A stretch of DNA of 62,860 nucleotides from a virus: positions 1 to 62,860 of the IMG/VR virus record IMGVR_UViG_3300009419_001029; one strand, given 5' to 3'. The number at the start of each line of letters is the position of its first letter. Position 1 is the stretch's first letter. The position numbers and the translations under genes are program-made. This document shows, piece after piece, positions 12,188-57,679 of this stretch. Under the pieces are notes generated by a model that did not search any database, was not told where the DNA came from, and saw only the letters and a list, made by a program, of their open reading frames with translations.

Positions 12188-12561
12188 TTGACTATGTAGT
12201 TGGTGGTGAGTTCATGAATGTGACTAGTAGTAAGGGAGCAGTCCCTTACTTGAATTCTAATCCTAATCCTATGACAGGTTCGTTAGCATTTGATTCATCT
12301 ACACAAAGCATGAAAGTATTTGATGGTAATAATTGGCAAACTGTTGGTGGCGGCAGTGCAGTGGTAAATCTAACACCTAACGCTATCAGCATACTCAAGT
12401 GGGCAGAAAAGAAGATGTTTGAAGAACAAGAGCTACAAGCATTGTGTGACAAACATCCTGCTATCAAAGACATTGTTGGTGAAATGAGAATAAGCATGGA
12501 CAACTATATCAATAAGATTGAAATGGTTAAAGCTCTAATACAAGAAGAAGTAAAAGTTTAA
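12184..12561 (+). CDS. Hypothetical protein, 125 residues
   Basis: The N-terminal half contains a beta motif (GSLAFDSSTQSMKVFDGNNWQTV) common in phage structural and fibre-like proteins. The C-terminal half is a long helix (ILKWAEKKMFEEQELQAL then DNYINKIEMVKALI). It overlaps the clamp and the next gene by four and one bases. Function unknown; could be a small virion or chaperone protein. Confidence 0.6.
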   Translation: MIDYVVGGEFMNVTSSKGAVPYLNSNPNPMTGSLAFDSSTQSMKVFDGNNWQTVGGGSAVVNLTPNAISILKWAEKKMFEEQELQALCDKHPAIKDIVGEMRISMDNYINKIEMVKALIQEEVKV

Positions 12562-14114
12562 TGGAACAAGTAAATCTATCAGCAAGTCACAACAACAATT
12601 GGGCATTGTTCTTACCCGCAGTCAGTAGTTTTTATATCTCTGGCTTAGGTAAGCAACGAAAGGGTGAACAGTACTTTGATCCTGCCCGTATTCCTGCACA
12701 ATTCAATGGTGACGTTGAAAAACTAAACTTTCTTAATAGTAAAGAAGGTCTCTACTACTACAAGTGGGGCTTGTACAGTGCTGGTCATGCTAACTTAGAT
12801 ACAACAGTTAACGATCCTAGTGAGAGTATCATTAGAGAACGGGAAGCTGGGACATTTATGTTGGGTGACTCTGGTGGATTTCAGATTCTAAAAGCTCAGT
12901 GGCCAGCAGACTGGAAAGACCCTAACTGCCCACGTGCTATGGTCAAGCGTAAAGCTGTATTGAACTGGATGGATACATACATGGACTATGGTATGTGTCT
13001 TGATATTCCATCACAATCTCTATCTACATTTCATATCAAAGATCCTAAGACAGGTAAAAGTGCTCACGGCATCAGTACGATTGAAGAAGCTATCACTGCA
13101 ACTCACATCAATAACGAATACTTTATTAAGAATCGTAACGGCAATTGTAAGTTCTTAAATGTATTGCAAGGTCGTAATCACAAACAAAGTGATGACTGGT
13201 ATGAAGAAATGAAAAAGTATTGTGATCCAAATATCTACCCAGATAATCACTTTAATGGTTGGGCATTCGGAGGTCAGAATAAAATCGATGTACACTTGAT
13301 GTTGCGTAGACTCGTTAACATCATTCATGATGGGTTACTAGTTGAAGGTAAGCATGATTTGGTTCACTGTTTGGGTGTATCTATCTTAGAGTACGCTGTA
13401 CTCTTCACCGACATTCAAAAAGCTATTCGCAAGTATCACAATCCAAATCTACAGATTACCTTTGATTGTGCAAGCCCATTCTTTAGTGCGGCTAAAGGTC
13501 TAGCATACTTTAATAACAGTATTGAACATAATAAGAAGTGGTCATACAGTATGGAAAAGACTGCTGAGAAAAAGAGTTATGCCAATGACAATCGTAAGTA
13601 CAGTGATGGTGTATTAGCTGATGGTATACACAAAATATTTACTGATAGTCCTGTAACTAACCTTATGACTATGAAGGACCTTTGTTATCGTGGTCAAGGT
13701 TTTATCGGTCAACATGGTAAAGAAACTAAAACAAGTTGGGATACACTTAGTTACACCTTACTACAAAGTCATAATGTTTATCAGCACATGACTGCCGTAC
13801 AAGAAGCCAATCGTAGATATGAAACAGGCATTATGCCTAAGATGGTTATGAATCAGTTTGATGACCAGCATTTCGGTGAAATTGTAGATAAGATATTTGC
13901 ACAAAATGATAGACAAAAGAGTCTAGATATGATAGAATCACATAGTAGCTTCTGGATGCAAATGAAGTCAGGTAGTCAGGGCTTTAGTGGTAAGAAAGCA
14001 ATGAATGCTATGACAATGTTTGACCAATTGTTTGAAGTAAATAATAGTGAGCCAGAAGTTGATGAAGTCATTGAGGACAGTGATGACGCAATCAATGAAG
14101 TTTTAGGAGAATGA
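12561..14114 (+). CDS. dpdA: DpdA-like 7-deazaguanine DNA transglycosylase (TGT family)
   Basis: 517 residues with the TIM-barrel signatures of the tRNA-guanine transglycosylase superfamily: MLGDSGGFQIL (substrate loop), LDIPSQS, LNVLQGRN, GWAFGGQNK, HCLGVS and TFDCASP, where Asp fits the nucleophile. DpdA relatives in phages exchange guanine in DNA for a 7-deazaguanine. folE, queD and queE, all in this window, make the precursor. No Cys3-His zinc site typical of the tRNA enzymes was clear. A DNA role is inferred from context and divergence; a tRNA role is the alternative. Confidence 0.72.
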   Translation: MEQVNLSASHNNNWALFLPAVSSFYISGLGKQRKGEQYFDPARIPAQFNGDVEKLNFLNSKEGLYYYKWGLYSAGHANLDTTVNDPSESIIREREAGTFMLGDSGGFQILKAQWPADWKDPNCPRAMVKRKAVLNWMDTYMDYGMCLDIPSQSLSTFHIKDPKTGKSAHGISTIEEAITATHINNEYFIKNRNGNCKFLNVLQGRNHKQSDDWYEEMKKYCDPNIYPDNHFNGWAFGGQNKIDVHLMLRRLVNIIHDGLLVEGKHDLVHCLGVSILEYAVLFTDIQKAIRKYHNPNLQITFDCASPFFSAAKGLAYFNNSIEHNKKWSYSMEKTAEKKSYANDNRKYSDGVLADGIHKIFTDSPVTNLMTMKDLCYRGQGFIGQHGKETKTSWDTLSYTLLQSHNVYQHMTAVQEANRRYETGIMPKMVMNQFDDQHFGEIVDKIFAQNDRQKSLDMIESHSSFWMQMKSGSQGFSGKKAMNAMTMFDQLFEVNNSEPEVDEVIEDSDDAINEVLGE

Positions 14115-14328: not shown

Positions 14329-14893
14329 TTTTAAATTAATACCCAATCTACCTAAACCAGAAGTAGAGTGGGATATTAATAAGAGGGTTATAGTTGTTGA
14401 TAACGTAATTAGCTCGGATATGTGCGATAATATTGTTGATCTTGTATCCAACAAGGTATCAAAAGGCATCAATAAATATCCACATGCGTTTGGCATCAGT
14501 TTTCATTCATGTACATTGTCATTGGAACATGAGATTCATAATTTGCTGCAACCAGTATGGAATCAAGCAATTAGTCAATTAGGATTTAATATTGAGTTTG
14601 TAGAACCGTATGAGGTAAAGAAGTATACTTCTAACGATTTCTTTGGAAAACATGTAGATAATTATTATAGTCTGTCCAAAGATATAGACAGAAAGATTAC
14701 AATGAGTGTACAATTGACTGATAGTTCAGAATACACAGGTGGTGATTTGTTAGTATTGGGTAGAAACATAGGTGGTAAATCTAAAGGTAGCGTCACTTTG
14801 TTTCCTAGCACATTTGCACACGAAGTGACACTAGTTAAATCTGGTGTTAGATGGTCATTAATTGGATGGGCATGGGGCCCTTATTGGAGATAA
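14315..14893 (+). CDS. 2-oxoglutarate/Fe(II) dioxygenase (P4H-like)
   Basis: 192 residues with the double-stranded beta-helix iron site: GKHVDNYY (His-x-Asp), then FAHEVTLVKSGVRWSLIGW, giving the distal His and the Arg that binds 2-oxoglutarate. Family members hydroxylate proteins, nucleobases or small molecules. Its position next to the DNA transglycosylase and a T-fold protein makes a base-modification role attractive but unproven; prolyl hydroxylation of a virion protein is also possible. Confidence 0.8.
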   Translation: MTTDDFKLIPNLPKPEVEWDINKRVIVVDNVISSDMCDNIVDLVSNKVSKGINKYPHAFGISFHSCTLSLEHEIHNLLQPVWNQAISQLGFNIEFVEPYEVKKYTSNDFFGKHVDNYYSLSKDIDRKITMSVQLTDSSEYTGGDLLVLGRNIGGKSKGSVTLFPSTFAHEVTLVKSGVRWSLIGWAWGPYWR

Positions 14894-14895
14894 TT

Positions 14896-15324
14896 ATGGA
14901 ACAACAAATACAAACATTGGCTGAAAAACGTCAACGCATTAAACAACATGCAATTCGCACAATCTTTGTGCGTTTTCAAAAAGAAGGTATTCATAAATAC
15001 CCAGCGGCAGCAACAGATCCAGCACTTGCAACAGGTGACGAGTATGATGTTAGCTTTCTCGCAACCCCACATCGTCACATCTTTCACTTTGAAGTGACGA
15101 TTGAAGTAGAACACTCGGACCGAGCCATTGAATTCATTCAATTCAAAAGATGGCTAGAAAATCTGTACAAAGGTGGGACATTAGCACTTGACTATAAAAG
15201 TTGCGAAATGATTGCTGAGGACCTTTATGAAGTAATTGCTACACGCTATCCTGATAGAACAATTCATATTGAGGTTAGTGAAGACAACGAAAACGGAGCA
15301 AGATTAACATTCACTGCTTCATAA
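14896..15324 (+). CDS. T-fold (QueD-like) protein, probably non-catalytic
   Basis: 142 residues from ATG 14896. The order of motifs follows 6-carboxytetrahydropterin synthase: HRHIFHFEVTIEV, EFIQFKRWLENL (like the DFxxLK segment), LALDYKSCEMIAEDLYEVI (like LDHxxLN...EN) and HIEVSEDNENGARL (like the Glu-Thr end). The usual Cys and zinc His set is incomplete, so it may bind a pterin or nucleotide without QueD chemistry. A true QueD is encoded at 22.2 kb. The assignment is by motif order only. Its 3' end overlaps the minus-strand HNH gene by 61 bases. Confidence 0.5.
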   Translation: MEQQIQTLAEKRQRIKQHAIRTIFVRFQKEGIHKYPAAATDPALATGDEYDVSFLATPHRHIFHFEVTIEVEHSDRAIEFIQFKRWLENLYKGGTLALDYKSCEMIAEDLYEVIATRYPDRTIHIEVSEDNENGARLTFTAS

Positions 15325-16034
15325 AGTTCATGTATTGAAATAGAACATTTAGTTCGTTTAGTTCTGTTTGCTTGCTTCGGTAACAATTCTAAATTAGTAT
15401 AATGTCCTATTACTTCAGGAGGAATTCCTTGGATAAATCCTTCAGTTTTACTAAACTTATGATCTAGTTCATACAAGTCTCCTCGTATGAGATTGTTTGG
15501 ATTGATTAGATTATGATGATGCTTCCAGCTTAAATTAGTATAGTTAGTGACTTGTTCCTGATACAATTCCCATTGAGACTTTGATTCTTTTGGGATTGCT
15601 AATCCTAGCTTAATTTTAGTGTCAGATGCTTGTTTATATGACTCTGGATTTCTTTTTTTGGCCTTTTCTGTTTGCAACTGTTTAGCTAAATCAGTATGAG
15701 ATTTATTGAACATTGGATTGTTATTACCGTAATGTCCGCCACGCTCTTTTACTTTTTTAGAAATCTTTTCCCCTTTAGCTCTAACCCACTCAGAATCAGC
15801 ATGTAGTTCCTTCAATTTTTTATTACCAGACTCACTCATTTTTTTCATATGTTTTATACGGTCTTCCGCAGTGGTGCGTTGTTTTCTACTATTTTCTGCT
15901 TTTTCAATAAAACCGGAACATTGAGTAATTTTCTCAGTACAACGGGTAATCTTAGTATTAACACTTATCCAATTAGCTTGCTTACCGCAATAAAAACATA
16001 TATCATTACATGTGGGGTTGAATATTTTAGGCAT
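15264..16034 (-). CDS. Free-standing HNH-type homing endonuclease
   Basis: 256 residues. The N-terminus has a Cys pair (CFYCGKQ, then CTEKITQCSGF), the middle a NUMOD3-like motif (GNNNPMFNKSHT) that binds DNA, and the C-terminus an HNH-like block (YELDHKFSKTEGF, then HYTNLELLPKQANRTKRTKCS). Such genes spread by cutting genomes that lack them. It is the only minus-strand gene in an 11-kb plus-strand region, has its own late promoter, and overlaps the end of the T-fold gene, all signs of insertion. Confidence 0.75.
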   Translation of the reverse strand: MPKIFNPTCNDICFYCGKQANWISVNTKITRCTEKITQCSGFIEKAENSRKQRTTAEDRIKHMKKMSESGNKKLKELHADSEWVRAKGEKISKKVKERGGHYGNNNPMFNKSHTDLAKQLQTEKAKKRNPESYKQASDTKIKLGLAIPKESKSQWELYQEQVTNYTNLSWKHHHNLINPNNLIRGDLYELDHKFSKTEGFIQGIPPEVIGHYTNLELLPKQANRTKRTKCSISIHELYEAVNVNLAPFSLSSLTSI

Positions 16035-19203: not shown

Positions 19204-19884
19204 ATGAGTTATAATAAAACAAAAACTAGTCCTGAGTTAGGATTAAAAGTACACGAACATTTAGTTAAAATGGGAGTTGAAACTCCCACAAAACCTAATA
19301 GCTTAGACCGTAAAGAAAAGATTGATATAATTGAAGGTCATTTTCAAAAGATTATGGAAACATTAGGACTAGACCTAAGTGACGATAGTTTAGAGGAAAC
19401 ACCCAAGCGTTGGGCAAAGATGGCTGTAAACGAAATTTTTTGGGGATTAGACTATGAAGCATTCCCTAAATGTACAACAGTTGACAACAAGATGCAATAT
19501 AACGAAATGGTTGTAGAGCGTAATGTTAATGTTCAATCTAACTGCGAACATCATTTTGTAGTAATCGATGGATTGGCTACTGTAGCTTATGTCCCTAAAC
19601 AAAAAGTTTTAGGGCTTAGTAAGATTAACAGAATAGTAGAATATTTTAGCAAAAGACCTCAGATTCAAGAGAGGTTAACAGAGCAAATTTTTCACACCTT
19701 ACAGTTCATCCTTGATACAGAAGATGTTGCAGTTATGATTGATGCCAAACATTATTGTGTGGCCGCACGTGGGGTAGAAGATACGGGATCTAGTACTGTT
19801 ACATGTCGTTTAGGTGGTGGTTTCAAAACTGATCCAGCGGCACGTAGTGAGTTCTTACAAATCGCTAACAAAGGTTGCAAATGA
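19204..19884 (+). CDS. folE: GTP cyclohydrolase I
   Basis: 226 residues. The zinc site is Cys114, His117 (NCEHHF) and Cys185 ([12 protein letters not shown]); the GTP-binding signature and STVTCRLGG end are intact. FolE converts GTP to dihydroneopterin triphosphate, the first step of both folate and 7-deazaguanine synthesis. With queD and queE nearby, feeding the preQ0 route is likely. The adjacent DfrB-type gene leaves folate as a second use. Late promoter with a 5' stem-loop; AAGGAAGG ribosome site. Confidence 0.95.
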
Positions 19885-20075
19885 AATTTAAACTAGGTGA
19901 TATGGTTAAAAAAGTGTCTGGTTCACAATGGCACGGAAAAGTAGTAGGTACATATTCAACTGAATTAACCCCGGAGGGGTATGCAGTTGAGAGTCATACA
20001 GAAAAAGGTTCTGTGCAAATATATCCAGCAAAGGCTCTTGAACTTTGGGATGGAGCTAATGATGGGATTTCGTAA
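19881..20075 (+). CDS. dfrB: R67-type (DfrB) dihydrofolate reductase homologue
   Basis: 64 residues from ATG 19881 (ATGA overlap with folE). The SH3-like barrel matches plasmid R67 DHFR along its core: [18 protein letters not shown], then [10 protein letters not shown] and [13 protein letters not shown]. The active-site set is kept: Lys11 (R67 Lys32) and Val45-Gln46-Ile47-Tyr48 (R67 VQIY). R67 enzymes act as tetramers around one pore and are not blocked by trimethoprim. The missing long N-terminus of R67 is dispensable in that family. Function as DHFR is inferred; a structural SH3 role is possible. Confidence 0.72.
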
Positions 20076-22190: not shown

Positions 22191-22673
22191 ATGGCAAACA
22201 AAAAATTCTTTTCAACAAAAACATACAGACAAATAGGTCCTGTAGCATATCGTCAATGGCGTGCTGACAGTCATTGTAACTTAATTCATGGCTATGCTAT
22301 GAGTTTTCACTTTGAGTTTGAAGCTGACACATTAGATGCCCGTAACTGGGTAACTGACTTCGGTGGATTACGCCCACTTAAAGATAAACTAGAAGAATGG
22401 TTTGACCATACATTACTAGTTGCACAAGACGACCCTATGCGTGAACATCTACTAGAATTAGGTCGATTGAAGCTAGCAAAGATTACAGAAGTAGAACGCA
22501 CAGGCTGTGAAGGTATTGCTGACTTTTTGTATGAATATGTTAACACAATCTTCTTGCCTAATTGCGGTAGTGAGGAAGCAAAGCGTGTATGGTGTTGCAA
22601 AGTAGAAGTCCGTGAGACTGATAGTAATATGGCAGGACGTGGTGGTCATAGAGAAGATAGAGAGTTTGCATAA
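22191..22673 (+). CDS. queD: 6-carboxytetrahydropterin synthase
   Basis: 160 residues. SHCNLIHGYAMSFHFEF carries the Cys and zinc region, WVTDFGGLRPLKDKLEEWFDHTLLV matches the DFxxLK...LDH block, and CKVEVRETDSNMA gives the Glu near the pterin. The usual HGH is HGY here, so one zinc ligand must come from elsewhere (the SFHF His is a candidate). It turns dihydroneopterin triphosphate into CPH4, the substrate of QueE. First gene behind its own promoter. Confidence 0.85.
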   Translation: MANKKFFSTKTYRQIGPVAYRQWRADSHCNLIHGYAMSFHFEFEADTLDARNWVTDFGGLRPLKDKLEEWFDHTLLVAQDDPMREHLLELGRLKLAKITEVERTGCEGIADFLYEYVNTIFLPNCGSEEAKRVWCCKVEVRETDSNMAGRGGHREDREFA

Positions 22674-23681: not shown

Positions 23682-23756
23682 ATAAAGGGTGAACGGATTG
23701 ATCCTCCTTCTGTGCCAATACACAGATAGCCCATCTATTACTTATTGGAGTATCTT

Positions 23757-24527
23757 ATGTTGAAGCAAACACTAATTGAAAAGTCCACGGTACCTAATAT
23801 CAGGTATATAGACAGATATATTTCATACATTGAAAAATGTAAACTTATACCAATCTTTGTTTCTTTTGAAAAGCATCATATATTACCTAAATCGTTTGGT
23901 GGTAACAATATTAATAACTTAATAAAACTATCACCGAGACACCACTATATTGCCCATGTTTTACTAGCAAAAGCAACCGGATCTCCTAAAATGATTAAAG
24001 CATTACATAAAATGATGTATTCTAGAACAGGTGATGTTAAAAGAGATTATAAGATTTCTAGTAGAATGTATGAGTATTTGAGAATTGAACATGCTAAAGT
24101 GGTAAGTGCTTATAGTAAAAATACAGTTACTGCTAAACATATGTTTACTAACGAAGTAAAGCGTATACCAAAAAAACTGTTTGACAAGTATAATGGAGTG
24201 TTATATGAGGCAATGGCTAAGGGTAGGAAAGATTCACAAGTGACAATAGAACTTAAAAGAATTGCTAGTAAAAAACCCAGAAAAGTTATACAAGGCACTA
24301 GTGTAAGAAGTTTGGCTGCGTCAAAGTATTCATATATAACACCCAAAGGGTATTGTGAAAATAGCAATGATCTGCTAAACTTATATAGCACTTTTACTAA
24401 AAACACATTAACTGTATTAGAAGATGAGTTTGTGATTAGTCACAAATTCGCCAGTATACACAATGAATTTAAAGATTGTGTGGGTAAAAAATTAAAAGAC
24501 ATTGGATTTACAAGAAAGATAAAATGA
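23757..24527 (+). CDS. HNH endonuclease, probably homing
   Basis: 256 residues from ATG 23757 (TTGGAG upstream). The HNH core is EKHHILPKSFGGNNINNLIKLSPRHHYIAHVLL near the N-terminus. The rest is basic with a region (KHMFTNEVKRIPKKLF, SYITPKGYCEN) like the target-reading domains of phage homing enzymes. It lies between a small gene and queE and has its own late promoter, so it probably arrived as a mobile insertion. ATGA overlap with queE. Confidence 0.75.
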   Translation: MLKQTLIEKSTVPNIRYIDRYISYIEKCKLIPIFVSFEKHHILPKSFGGNNINNLIKLSPRHHYIAHVLLAKATGSPKMIKALHKMMYSRTGDVKRDYKISSRMYEYLRIEHAKVVSAYSKNTVTAKHMFTNEVKRIPKKLFDKYNGVLYEAMAKGRKDSQVTIELKRIASKKPRKVIQGTSVRSLAASKYSYITPKGYCENSNDLLNLYSTFTKNTLTVLEDEFVISHKFASIHNEFKDCVGKKLKDIGFTRKIK

Positions 24528-25378
24528 GCAAGTTACATTATACAGAATTATTCTATAGCATTCAAGGTGAGGGTAGATATACCGGTGTTCCATCCGTGTT
24601 CTTACGAACATTTGGATGTAACTTTAAATGCCGAAATTTTGGCAGAGATAAAGATGATACTTCCGATAATCAAGAAGTAATGAACATTATACAAAATATT
24701 GACAAATATGAAACATTCAAGAGTCTCCCGCTGGTTAGCACAGGGTGCGACAGCTATAGCTCAGTGTATCCTCAATTCAAATCTTTTGTTACTCATTCTG
24801 ATACCGATTCTATTGTTGACAGTATTATGGATATACTTCCTCACAAGCGTTGGATGGATGAACACCTTGTTATTACAGGTGGTGAACCTTTGCTTGGATG
24901 GCAAAGAGCGTATCCTGACTTACTTTCAAACTCGAAAATGACTGCACTGAAAGAGATTACATTTGAAACTAATGGTACACAAGAATTGAGTACAGAGTTC
25001 AAAGAGTTTCTAAACAAATGGAAGATGCATCGTGAAAAGAATGCATTGACATTCAGTGTCAGTCCTAAATTAAGTATCAGTGGTGAGAAGTGGAGTGAAG
25101 CAATTTGTCCTGAAATCATTCGTCAATATGAAAGTATTGGTTTTGTCTATCTTAAGTTTGTTGTAGCAAGTGAAGAAGATGTACAAGAAGCAGAGAAAGC
25201 AGTTAAAGAATTTCGCGCCGGTGGATTCAGAGGTCCTGTATACTTGATGCCATGCGGTGGTGTTGAATCATTGTATAACATGAACGCAAAAAATGTAGCA
25301 ATTGCGGCAATGAATCGTGGCTGGCGTTATAGTGACAGATTACAAGTACCATTGTTTAAAAACGAGTGGGGCACTTGA
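24524..25378 (+). CDS. queE: 7-carboxy-7-deazaguanine synthase (radical SAM)
   Basis: 284 residues: YSIQGEGRYTGVPSVFLR is the QueE N-terminal signature; VITGGEPLLG and ITFETNGTQ are SAM-binding strands; FSVSPKLS follows. The cluster Cys spacing is unusual: GCNFKC gives Cys32 and Cys36, but position 39 is Phe. The third Cys is probably Cys75 in GCDSYSS, after an insert of about 35 residues, since CDS is the normal ending of the CxxxCxxC motif. QueE makes CDG, the step before preQ0. No QueC is in the window. Confidence 0.88.
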   Translation: MSKLHYTELFYSIQGEGRYTGVPSVFLRTFGCNFKCRNFGRDKDDTSDNQEVMNIIQNIDKYETFKSLPLVSTGCDSYSSVYPQFKSFVTHSDTDSIVDSIMDILPHKRWMDEHLVITGGEPLLGWQRAYPDLLSNSKMTALKEITFETNGTQELSTEFKEFLNKWKMHREKNALTFSVSPKLSISGEKWSEAICPEIIRQYESIGFVYLKFVVASEEDVQEAEKAVKEFRAGGFRGPVYLMPCGGVESLYNMNAKNVAIAAMNRGWRYSDRLQVPLFKNEWGT

Positions 25379-29526: not shown

Positions 29527-30383
29527 TATGCTTGTCCAGTCCAGATAGCGTACAAGCCAGTAGATGAATTGTAGTTGCCGTATACTTTGCTTAGTTTTGT
29601 ATCAACATACGCTTCTAGTTCTGTACCTGTTGTATTTGGTTTAACATCAAACGCAAAGAATTCTTCATCAAATAGGCCAGTACCAATGTGTTGTCCACCT
29701 AATTCACCCATGATAGTATCAATATTCTTGTTGGCCTTTGCAGGTGTAGTCATACTGTATGGACTTGGTCTAGTGTCTAAGTCGTCTTCATCAAAACTAA
29801 TGTAACCCTTCATTTGTACTCCGGGGATGCTAGCAAGACTGACCCAGTTTCTACGACCACCGGGAGTTTGGCTACTTCCTGCAAGCAATGGACGCTTCAT
29901 AATAGTTAGTACAATACCATACAATGCTTTAGCGATACCGCCACCGCGATAATCTTCATCTACTGTGATAGTATCAACTTGAACTGCACCTTTAAGCGGG
30001 AATCCGTGAACAGTACTAACTGACAATTTGCCTATCAATTGTCCCGGAGTATTTAAGTCTCGTTGTGCTCTTTGCCAATCCCAAAGTCTACGGTCGTACA
30101 CGAAGCGTGACTCTCCTCGGCCACGAACTGGTTTGGGTTGAACACCTCTTTCTTTTTGAGCAAGAAAGTCTTTACCGTTTGGATCCCAGAGTTTGATATC
30201 AGTGCCACCGAACCTACCTTCACTAGTAGAGTAAAGTAATCCACTACCACCGGGGAGTTTCTTTAGTTGCTTACCAATCTGTTTGTCATACAAGGCGTAC
30301 TTGCCGCCCTCATAGTCATCCGGACGCAATCTTTCAATCTCGTCTAGTTCTTGTGTTTCGTTTATAAATTCATTTGCTCTCAT
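29526..30383 (-). CDS. Packaged GNAT acetyltransferase-like protein
   Basis: 285 residues starting MRANEFINE, nearly the same capsid-targeting-like peptide as the next gene. The acetyl-CoA motif TITVDEDYRGGGIAKALYGIVL is at about 138-158. An N-terminal part (YALYDKQIGKQLKKL) and a C-terminal ADP-ribosyl or acetyl target region are not recognised. It overlaps the downstream gene by one base and the SOD gene by four. Likely delivered with DNA; substrate unknown. Confidence 0.65.
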   Translation of the reverse strand: MRANEFINETQELDEIERLRPDDYEGGKYALYDKQIGKQLKKLPGGSGLLYSTSEGRFGGTDIKLWDPNGKDFLAQKERGVQPKPVRGRGESRFVYDRRLWDWQRAQRDLNTPGQLIGKLSVSTVHGFPLKGAVQVDTITVDEDYRGGGIAKALYGIVLTIMKRPLLAGSSQTPGGRRNWVSLASIPGVQMKGYISFDEDDLDTRPSPYSMTTPAKANKNIDTIMGELGGQHIGTGLFDEEFFAFDVKPNTTGTELEAYVDTKLSKVYGNYNSSTGLYAIWTGQA

Positions 30384-30934
30384 AGACTCTTACCCCAACG
30401 TGTATTGATTACATTCCAATTGATAATCTTCCACTGCTCTTTTAAATACTTCTTCTTGTCACTACCGTAATCTAGTATCCAAGCATGTTCCCACCAGTCA
30501 ATCAATAACAATATATCATTGCGAACTTGATGATTGGGTATTGTTTTAATCTTACCATCAGTTGCTAAGTATATCCAACCACTACCTTGTATCTTCATAG
30601 CTTCAACTTCAAACTTATCTTTCATACTATCGTATGACCCATAGTGTTTGTTGATAAAGCCCACCATAGGACCGTTTGGTTTGTTACTGTTTCTTACTTC
30701 ACGAAACTGAGGGAACAATGTATTATGCAAGAATGCACCTGCATAATTAAAGTCTCTATCGCCCTCTTTCTTGTTGTATCGTTCAGCATAACCATGCGCT
30801 AACTTGCCATAGTGTAAGTCCAATGTATCTTTTGATAATACAGGACTTACTTCTTTTGGCTCGAAGTTTAGAGCGATGATTTCTATATCTTGAGGCTTAC
30901 TCTTATCCTCAAGTAACTGAATGATATCACGCAT
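30380..30934 (-). CDS. Fe/Mn superoxide dismutase with capsid-targeting-like N-terminus
   Basis: 184 residues. The metal ligands line up with the Fe/Mn SOD family: His41 (DLHYGK), His70 (AFLHNTLF), Asp146 and His150 (DWWEHAW); GSGWIYLA and YLKEQWKIINW complete the fold. It converts superoxide to peroxide and oxygen. The first nine residues, MRDIIQLLE, add a Leu-x-Glu cleavage-type site absent from bacterial SODs, and the gene sits inside the late block of packaged proteins. So I infer that SOD is carried in the head. Fe or Mn specificity cannot be read here. Confidence 0.85.
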   Translation of the reverse strand: MRDIIQLLEDKSKPQDIEIIALNFEPKEVSPVLSKDTLDLHYGKLAHGYAERYNKKEGDRDFNYAGAFLHNTLFPQFREVRNSNKPNGPMVGFINKHYGSYDSMKDKFEVEAMKIQGSGWIYLATDGKIKTIPNHQVRNDILLLIDWWEHAWILDYGSDKKKYLKEQWKIINWNVINTRWGKSL

Positions 30935-49739: not shown

Positions 49740-50552
49740 ATGAATCGTTTTATTAAAGTTGGTTTTGTTCTCGCCGCAGTTGCTCTTACTTCTGCATGTA
49801 CTCGAATTGAGACTGGTGAGGTTGGTCTTCGCCGAGACATTAACAAGCAGGTTAATACTACTGAACTGTTGCCTGGCTCTTGGAATCAAACTATCATCGG
49901 TGAGGTTATGACGTTCCCTATCAAAGACGTTAACGTGGTCATCGAAAACATGACTCCTGTTGCTAAAGACAACTCAACAATGAAAGATTTGGACGCTGTG
50001 ATTGTTTATAACGTCAATCAAAGTCAGGTTGCTGAACTATATAATGCTAAGAACAAAAGTTTCCATGCTGATTTCAAGGGCGATACTTATGTGATGTATA
50101 ATTACATTGTACAGAATGCTCGTAATGCAATTTACAAAGCCGCACGTAAGTATGAAGCATTAGACATGGCAGACAATCGCAATGAAATGGAAATCTTCAT
50201 TAAGGAGGAAATTACTCGAAACCTTGCTGAAGAAAAACTAGACGGAAGTATTGGCATTAGCCAAGTTATGGTTCGTAGCGTAGTTCCTTCAGATGTTATT
50301 GTTGCTAGTGCAAATGAGTTGGTTCGTAGTAAGAACGAATTGAAGCAGAAGGAAGTTGAAGTTAAGACTGCCGAAGCAGAAGCCCGACGAATTGCGGCTC
50401 TTGCACAAAACGCAGGTGCTATTCAGTATATGGATGCGCAGGCTCGTATGAAACAAGCCGATGCGGCACTTGAAACAGCTAAGGCTATTGCAACATTCAA
50501 AGGTAACACACTTGTTATTGGTGCTGGTACTAACGTAAACGTAGGTAAATAA
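49740..50552 (+). CDS. SPFH/prohibitin-type lipoprotein
   Basis: 270 residues. Lipobox SACT (Cys20) after a signal sequence anchors it to the membrane. The SPFH part runs through ETGEVGLRRDINKQV, then VIVYNVNQSQVAEL and GISQVMVRSVVPSDV. A long coiled coil follows (KNELKQKEVEVKTAEAEARRIA) and a Gly-rich end. SPFH proteins form rings that organise membranes or hold proteases such as FtsH. A phage copy might protect or remodel the host envelope. Prohibitin family assignment is good; role inferred. Confidence 0.75.
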   Translation: MNRFIKVGFVLAAVALTSACTRIETGEVGLRRDINKQVNTTELLPGSWNQTIIGEVMTFPIKDVNVVIENMTPVAKDNSTMKDLDAVIVYNVNQSQVAELYNAKNKSFHADFKGDTYVMYNYIVQNARNAIYKAARKYEALDMADNRNEMEIFIKEEITRNLAEEKLDGSIGISQVMVRSVVPSDVIVASANELVRSKNELKQKEVEVKTAEAEARRIAALAQNAGAIQYMDAQARMKQADAALETAKAIATFKGNTLVIGAGTNVNVGK

Positions 50553-55719: not shown

Positions 55720-56922
55720 ATGTCAACAGAAACAAAACTAAATTATTGCACTTTTTGCGATGCCCACAAGGATAAAGTTAAGAAACTTATTGTAAGTGAG
55801 GATGTTGCAATTTGTAGTGATTGCGTAGACCTATGCAATAAATTGATGTTAGATGAGGAGAGTGAAAAACTTGAACCAGTTGAACACAATGTTTCTTATG
55901 ATCCTGAATCAATCAAAGAATTTTTAGACCAGCATATTATCGGACAAGATAGTGCTAAGAGTGTATTGAGTGTAGCTATTGCTAATCACTATAAACGTAT
56001 TAACAAGCCACCCAAAGACTTAGAAATCTCTAAGGGTAATGTATTATTGATTGGTCCTACTGGTAGCGGTAAAACATTGCTTGCCAAAACTGTAGCGAAA
56101 TACTTGGAAGTTCCCTTCATTGTAGCAGATGCAACAAGTATTACAGAAGCAGGTTATGTAGGTGATGATGTTGAATCAATGATTAGTATGCTAGTGAATG
56201 CCGCAGGTGGTGATCCTAAATTAGCAGAGCGTGGTATTGTGTTTGTTGACGAGATTGACAAGATTGCCCGTCGGGGCGAGAGTGCTAGTATTACCCGCGA
56301 TGTGTCCGGTGAGGGAGTTCAACAAGCATTACTTAAGTTAGTTGAGGGTACCATTTGTCGTATTCCAGCTAGCGGTGGACGTAAGCATCCCGGTGGAGAC
56401 ATGCTTGAGATTAATACAAAAGACATTCTGTTTATTGCAGGTGGTGCGTTTGTAGGATTAAAAGAAATTATTAACAACCGCGAGAATGGTACAAGCATTG
56501 GCTTTGGTGCTGAGATCAAAGACAATCGTAAAGAATCAGAGTTGAATAATGTATCACCTGACGATTTAGTAAGATTTGGTATGATTCCTGAATTCATTGG
56601 GCGTTTCACTACTACTGTAAGTGTGAGCGACTTGACTAAGGATGAACTAATTAAGGTCCTTAAAGAAGTTAAGAACAACTACATTGACCAGTATAAGTAT
56701 TTGCTCAGTTTAGACAATGTTGCGATAGAGTTTACCGAGGATGCATTGGATCAACTAGCAGAAAATTGCTTAAAACTAAAGACAGGTGCACGTGGATTGC
56801 ATACTGAGATTGAACGCACATTAATGCCTCATATGTTTAATACTAAAACATATCGGGAAAACAACGTTACAGAGATAAATATAGACAGAGATTTAGTTTT
56901 GGAGCCAAAATCATTAGTATGA
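55720..56922 (+). CDS. clpX: ClpX, AAA+ unfoldase of ClpXP
   Basis: 400 residues, close to bacterial ClpX (424). Zinc-binding domain: Cys10, Cys13, Cys32 and Cys35. AAA+ parts: Walker A GPTGSGKT (112-119), pore loop GYVG (145-148), Walker B FVDEID (175-180), RKH loop (221-223), the ClpP-docking loop SIGFGAE with IGF at 260-262, and GARGLHTEIE (sensor 2). All are intact, so it should unfold proteins and dock ClpP. It is about 4 kb before clpP and one gene before hsp20/clpS, and overlaps the bS21 gene by ATGA. Confidence 0.97.
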   Translation: MSTETKLNYCTFCDAHKDKVKKLIVSEDVAICSDCVDLCNKLMLDEESEKLEPVEHNVSYDPESIKEFLDQHIIGQDSAKSVLSVAIANHYKRINKPPKDLEISKGNVLLIGPTGSGKTLLAKTVAKYLEVPFIVADATSITEAGYVGDDVESMISMLVNAAGGDPKLAERGIVFVDEIDKIARRGESASITRDVSGEGVQQALLKLVEGTICRIPASGGRKHPGGDMLEINTKDILFIAGGAFVGLKEIINNRENGTSIGFGAEIKDNRKESELNNVSPDDLVRFGMIPEFIGRFTTTVSVSDLTKDELIKVLKEVKNNYIDQYKYLLSLDNVAIEFTEDALDQLAENCLKLKTGARGLHTEIERTLMPHMFNTKTYRENNVTEINIDRDLVLEPKSLV

Positions 56923-57241: not shown

Positions 57242-57679
57242 ATGACAAAAACTTTAACCCTTCGTTCCCTCGACATTCCGTCAATCGCTAAATTTGGTAT
57301 CGGTTTCGATAACATGTTTGATGAACTTGCACGAATGAACAGTCAACAATCACTCAACTATCCCCCATATAACATCGTCAAGAATACCGAAGATTCCTTC
57401 GATATTCAAGTAGCTGTTTCTGGCTTTAGTGAAGGTGAAATTCAAGTTAACCTTGATAACCGTGTATTGACTATTAAGGGACAGAAGAATGAGGAACTCA
57501 TTGCTGAGTATCTACATAAAGGTATCAGTACACGTGATTTTGTGCGTGAGTTTACACTAGCAGAACACGTTGAGGTAATCAATGCTTCACAAAAAGATGG
57601 TATTTTGACTATTCAACTAGAACGAATTGTTCCAGAAGAAAAGAAGCCAAAAGCTATTGCTATTAATTACACTAAATAA
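57242..57679 (+). CDS. hsp20: Small heat shock protein (Hsp20/IbpA type)
   Basis: 145 residues. The alpha-crystallin domain is at about 38-130: YNIVKNTEDSFDIQVAVSGFSEGEIQV, VLTIKGQKNEE, HKGISTRDFVREFTLAEHVEV and DGILTIQLERIVPEE. Hsp20 holds unfolded proteins without ATP. T4-like phages of cyanobacteria also carry it. Its end has no clear IxI motif (IAINYTK). Lies between clpX and clpS. Confidence 0.93.
   Translation: MTKTLTLRSLDIPSIAKFGIGFDNMFDELARMNSQQSLNYPPYNIVKNTEDSFDIQVAVSGFSEGEIQVNLDNRVLTIKGQKNEELIAEYLHKGISTRDFVREFTLAEHVEVINASQKDGILTIQLERIVPEEKKPKAIAINYTK

Follow-up and report, generated by a model that had tools for sequence, protein, structure and literature searches.

What an R67-type dihydrofolate reductase gene is doing in a freshwater phage, directly behind the gene for GTP cyclohydrolase I, is the question raised by the dfrB-like gene of IMG/VR record IMGVR_UViG_3300009419_001029, of which the whole stretch analysed (positions 1 to 62,860) is here called the window. 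The trimethoprim resistance due to DfrB enzymes is very high; where these enzymes come from and what they naturally do are open questions (PMC9835603, PMC7725336). The window gene is a further member of a known family, for which phage homologues and the resistance phenotype have already been published: the distant DfrB-H homologues include DfrB-H3 of a Pseudomonas phage and DfrB-H4 of a Vibrio phage, a Vibrio phage homologue makes E. coli trimethoprim-resistant, activity was seen in some relatives sharing the core (PMC9835603), and eight lytic-phage DfrB candidates have been counted (PMC12466917). Features of the locus are collected in Table 1.

Table 1. Position and assignment of dfrB and of the surrounding features in the window.
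Feature	Coordinates	Strand	Basis of assignment
DpdA-like protein, tRNA-guanine-transglycosylase (TGT) fold, 517 aa	12561..14114	+	predicted structure; GDSGGFQ and FDCxSP motifs (alignment)
Second QueD/PTPS-fold (T-fold) protein, 157 aa, possible QueD paralogue	14851..15324	+	phrog_2389 E=0.003; predicted model
folE, GTP cyclohydrolase I	19204..19884	+	PF01227 E=3.2e-60; above NCBIfam FolE equivalog cut-off
AAAGG, putative Shine-Dalgarno-like	19870..19874	+	6 nt upstream of the dfrB ATG, within the folE end; read in sequence
dfrB-like gene	19881..20075	+	64-aa R67-type (DHFR_2) protein; ATG start, TAA stop
Small gene 3' of dfrB, 78 aa	20062..20298	+	no family; directly after folE in dfrB-minus relatives
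queD-like, 6-carboxytetrahydropterin synthase	22191..22673	+	PF01242 E=1.8e-15; phrog_2389 E=6.5e-41; PDB 7v0f profile match; CxxxHGY motif
queE-like, radical SAM 7-carboxy-7-deazaguanine synthase	24524..25378	+	phrog_2076 E=8.9e-51

The dfrB product matched Pfam DHFR_2 (PF06442; E=4.6e-22; positions 24-75 of 78; score 78.1 bits, cut-off 25) and, gap-free over residues 3 to 54, the R67 crystal structures 1VIE and 6NY0 (E=3e-17). Against NCBIfam trim_DfrB it scored 87.5 bits (E=4.2e-25), and since this lies under the curated cut-off of 137 the protein is not filed there as a clinical resistance DfrB. Identity to integron and plasmid DfrBs is 67-74% over the core of 52-53 residues. With the type B enzymes the protein shares the 52-residue SH3-like core and, in R67 numbering, K32, W38, Y46, T51, G64, S65, V66, Q67, I68 and Y69, so that all active-site and interface residues of R67 are kept; both the R67-type homologue that the earlier note had recognised at this position and its active-site VQIY strand with the key Lys are thereby confirmed. 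It differs from R67 in lacking the N-terminal tail (R67 residues 1-21), which leaves a bare core, in carrying Thr in place of W45, and in being encoded by a phage within a pterin/deazaguanine cassette instead of an integron cassette. W45 is likewise reported as not conserved in the distant DfrB homologues, and the DfrB-H proteins resemble the window protein in phage origin and core; however, they are 97-463 aa long, have extra domains and are encoded near DNA methyltransferase genes, in contrast to the bare 64-aa core beside folE (PMC9835603).

Residues K32, W38, Y46, T51, V66, Q67 and Y69 were invariant among the 137-138 DfrB family members having a residue at the site, a count biased by search patterns containing GSVQIYP, which favour VQIYP carriers. 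In 47 close relatives of dfrB, mean pS was 0.65 and mean pN 0.08 (pN/pS about 0.12), because of which dfrB is regarded as a genuine, constrained gene under strong purifying selection. R67 itself is a homotetramer with a single central pore that binds NADPH and dihydrofolate. Judged by its identity to R67, the window protein should form a homotetramer with one shared pore as well, and since the active-site residues are kept, the same chemistry is likely.

At the junction, the last 4 bases of folE are the start of dfrB, the TGA stop and the ATG sharing ATGA. The overlap is present as previously described, and it had been taken as coupling of dfrB to folE. RNA structure prediction gave no translational hairpin above shuffles at the junction. 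Among the relatives, clean "empty sites" were seen, in which the next gene follows immediately after the folE stop when dfrB is missing, and in other relatives unrelated small genes occupy the slot. The position after folE is an insertion slot open to many small genes, and because unrelated genes use it too, the ATGA overlap by itself says little about coupling; its strong reading was rejected on the empty-site comparison.

Together, folE, queD, queE and the genes for the second QueD-fold and the DpdA-like proteins are a predicted phage 7-deazaguanine DNA-modification cassette, as read from its gene content, in which QueD and QueE score under the NCBIfam equivalog cut-offs. The protein at 12561-14114 returned no named family match from Pfam, PHROGs, NCBIfam or PDB profile search, and its assignment as a TGT-fold, DpdA-like protein comes from the predicted structure: all PDB matches listed by Foldseek were TGTs (best E=3e-8, TM 0.54 by target). 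For the second QueD-fold protein, in which the CxxxHGY motif is absent, the top Foldseek matches of the model were E. coli QueD (E=8e-5). Its gene lies close downstream of the TGT-fold gene in 75 of 80 loci, and the protein could act on the deazaguanine product. A 2023 paper in NAR reportedly adds to the deazaguanines known from phages and proposes a CDG decarboxylase. Isolated Pseudomonas aeruginosa jumbo phages, e.g. PA5oct, encode distantly related versions of the TGT-fold and QueD-fold proteins near a QueE gene, where they are annotated as hypothetical.

Like the described phage 7-deazaguanine cassettes (FolE, QueD, QueE, QueC, DpdA; PMC6884629), the window has FolE, QueD, QueE and a TGT-fold protein. 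It departs from them in the second QueD-fold protein, in the optional R67-type reductase, in a DpdA-like protein so distant that Pfam and PDB profile searches miss it, and in QueC (PF06508), which was found neither in the window nor in 49 of 50 dfrB-bearing contigs, these contigs being fragments. Family searches of the window found no thyA (PF00303), thyX (PF02511) or folA, and neither folP nor folK was among the window proteins scanned. A folate operon was rejected for the window because queD and queE follow and these five genes were not found.

Several further observations were made on the window and its relatives. In the QueE-like proteins, the presumed cluster motif CxxxC...GCDS has 33-37 residues between its second Cys and its third (26 of 26 checked). 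The TGT-fold (DpdA-like) family has hundreds of relatives in viral contigs and no Pfam, PHROGs or NCBIfam name. Two homing-endonuclease-like ORFs lie in the cassette region, one at 15264-16034 (-) with a weak NUMOD3 match and one at 23745-24527 (+) with an HNH-like pattern seen by eye. Elsewhere, the phage encodes an Fe/Mn superoxide dismutase at 30380-30934 (-; PF02777 E=4e-23) and host-like chaperone and membrane proteins, i.e. SPFH/Band 7 (49740-50552), a ClpX-like AAA protein with a zinc finger (55720-56922) and Hsp20 (57242-57679).

Whether dfrB is tied to this cassette was judged from its relatives. Only about 5% of related cassettes carry the gene: it was present in 5 of 80 loci retrieved by queD and in 4 of 80 retrieved by the DpdA-like gene. 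The cassette therefore does not need dfrB, which is an optional accessory. Its position also differs between relatives. It may directly follow folE, the TGT-fold gene or queD, in the last case with a 4-base overlap, or stand directly before queE. To allow for the openness of the slot, dfrB was compared with other small families of the same regions. Distinct dfrB contexts touched a cassette gene in 19 of 25 cases, against 142 of 561 (25%) for the other families; the Fisher p-value of 3e-7 is indicative only, because the contexts share ancestry and the ORF calls are simple, and the background is itself raised by most of its loci having been fetched with cassette genes. Of the 59 small families listed, none but dfrB adjoins as many as four different cassette genes, namely folE, queD, queE and the dpdA-like gene. 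In the tree, queD- and queE-linked copies mix and folE-linked copies branch among them, which indicates that dfrB has moved and yet remained by the cassette. The excess of cassette contacts over background suggests a real link of dfrB to the supply of reduced pterin. The connection to pterin metabolism that the earlier note had drawn from folE needs correcting in that this folE belongs to a predicted deazaguanine cassette and not to a folate operon.

DfrB domains are common in other phages and prophages, standalone or fused to other domains. By motif patterns, the family was found in at least 160 viral contigs against 25 of 84,980 bacterial and archaeal species genomes, which supports the earlier suggestion of phages as a reservoir, the family being seen mainly in phages within the collections searched. 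In the phylogeny, DfrB2/3/9/10-type proteins from integrons were placed among phage sequences, with weak support from 53 alignment columns. Outside the phage group of the window, folE was not found in 50 dfrB-bearing contigs, and the dfrB neighbours there include integrases, SSB and DNA methylase. FolA was found in none of 50 dfrB-bearing contigs. In one contig (L078:2488-3493), the gene next after a DfrB-like gene encodes an N6/N4 DNA methylase (PF01555), matching the DNA-modification neighbours reported in PMC9835603. In L064 and L066 the DfrB domain looked by eye to be fused to MazG, which Pfam did not confirm.

The explanation proposed, to which a probability of roughly 45% is given, is that an optional R67-type reductase has been gained repeatedly beside 7-deazaguanine cassette genes, where it would supply reduced pterin in infection. 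Four copies of the 64-aa protein would together enclose a single active site shaped as a pore, where NADPH would reduce a 7,8-dihydropterin, either dihydrofolate or a compound close to it. FolE, QueD and QueE with the second QueD-fold protein would make the 7-deazaguanine base, and the DpdA-like protein probably exchanges it into phage DNA. Tetrahydropterin is made by QueD and consumed by QueE, and such pterins oxidise readily to dihydro forms; dihydropterins are the substrate class reduced by R67, and to our knowledge no R67-type enzyme is known to reduce pterins without the folate tail. The benefit could take two forms: DfrB may keep the QueD-to-QueE intermediate, 6-carboxy-tetrahydropterin, reduced, or it may replenish tetrahydrofolate at a time when the shared FolE product is being drawn away from folate by the phage. 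Homology, intact catalytic residues, purifying selection and the repeated cassette placement are observed, and the tetramer, the activity, the substrate and the benefit are inferred; against this reading stand the few cassettes with dfrB, the shared slot, and the other phages that have dfrB without folE.

The main rival is that dfrB encodes a plain dihydrofolate reductase serving phage thymidylate synthesis, its position by folE and queD being incidental in a hotspot of small genes, and this is possible, if on balance doubtful. A direct R67-type link to thymidylate synthesis is seen in another phage, in which dfrB overlaps thyA by 8 bases (L072:9980-11285), and in phiM9 a thyA-like td.2 lies three genes from dfrB if the record ends are joined. 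Moreover, folA is absent from the dfrB-bearing phages that have thyA, and other small genes also enter the slot after folE. The T4-type module of FolA (DHFR) and thyA offers a parallel as a phage-borne reductase proposed for pterin metabolism, although its fold is unrelated and neither thyA nor folA was found in the window. Against a thymidylate role, thyA and thyX were not found in most relatives either, contigs of 101-117 kb included, and dfrB adjoins the four cassette genes more than other small genes of the same regions do.

An unlikely explanation is that the SH3-like fold acts as a module that binds cassette enzymes or nucleic acid or helps in their assembly, the pore being structural and reductase activity a side property. 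Many unrelated fusion partners of the domain occur in other phages, DUF3850/ASCH in L065:522-1196 and others in L050, L068 and L084 among them, and it has been argued that activity arose from a non-catalytic fold (PMC9835603). Such a module is hard to reconcile with K32, Q67 and Y69, which are as invariant as the structural residues in the 138 members, with the reservation that the search motifs favour VQIYP carriers. A preQ0 reductase replacing QueF was also considered; QueC, the maker of preQ0, was not found in the window, though a host QueC could supply the compound. That dfrB is a trimethoprim-resistance gene carried for the host is very improbable in spite of its high similarity to integron DfrBs, as trimethoprim is synthetic while the dfrB copies are diverse and old (mean pS as above), a recent transfer would be expected to leave near-identity to an integron cassette where only 67-74% is seen, and no integron or other resistance gene was among the window proteins scanned.

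Returning to the reductase that would supply reduced pterin, its placement beside deazaguanine cassette genes looks new: no report linking DfrB to FolE, QueD, QueE or DpdA genes was found in a literature search mainly of openly accessible papers. A wider form of the proposal, by which dihydropterin reduction in phage modified-base pathways is the native job of R67-type enzymes, first discovered in resistance plasmids, and phage or prophage genes of this kind are the ancestors of integron DfrB genes, is speculative and rather improbable. The repeated placement of dfrB nevertheless hints at the original job of R67-type enzymes, and it offers a concrete and testable candidate for their native role, namely the reduction of dihydropterins while deazaguanine is being made. 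That a DfrB core of 64 aa, without further domains, is under selection and recurs beside FolE, QueD, QueE and DpdA-like genes points to phages and prophages as a natural reservoir of the family.
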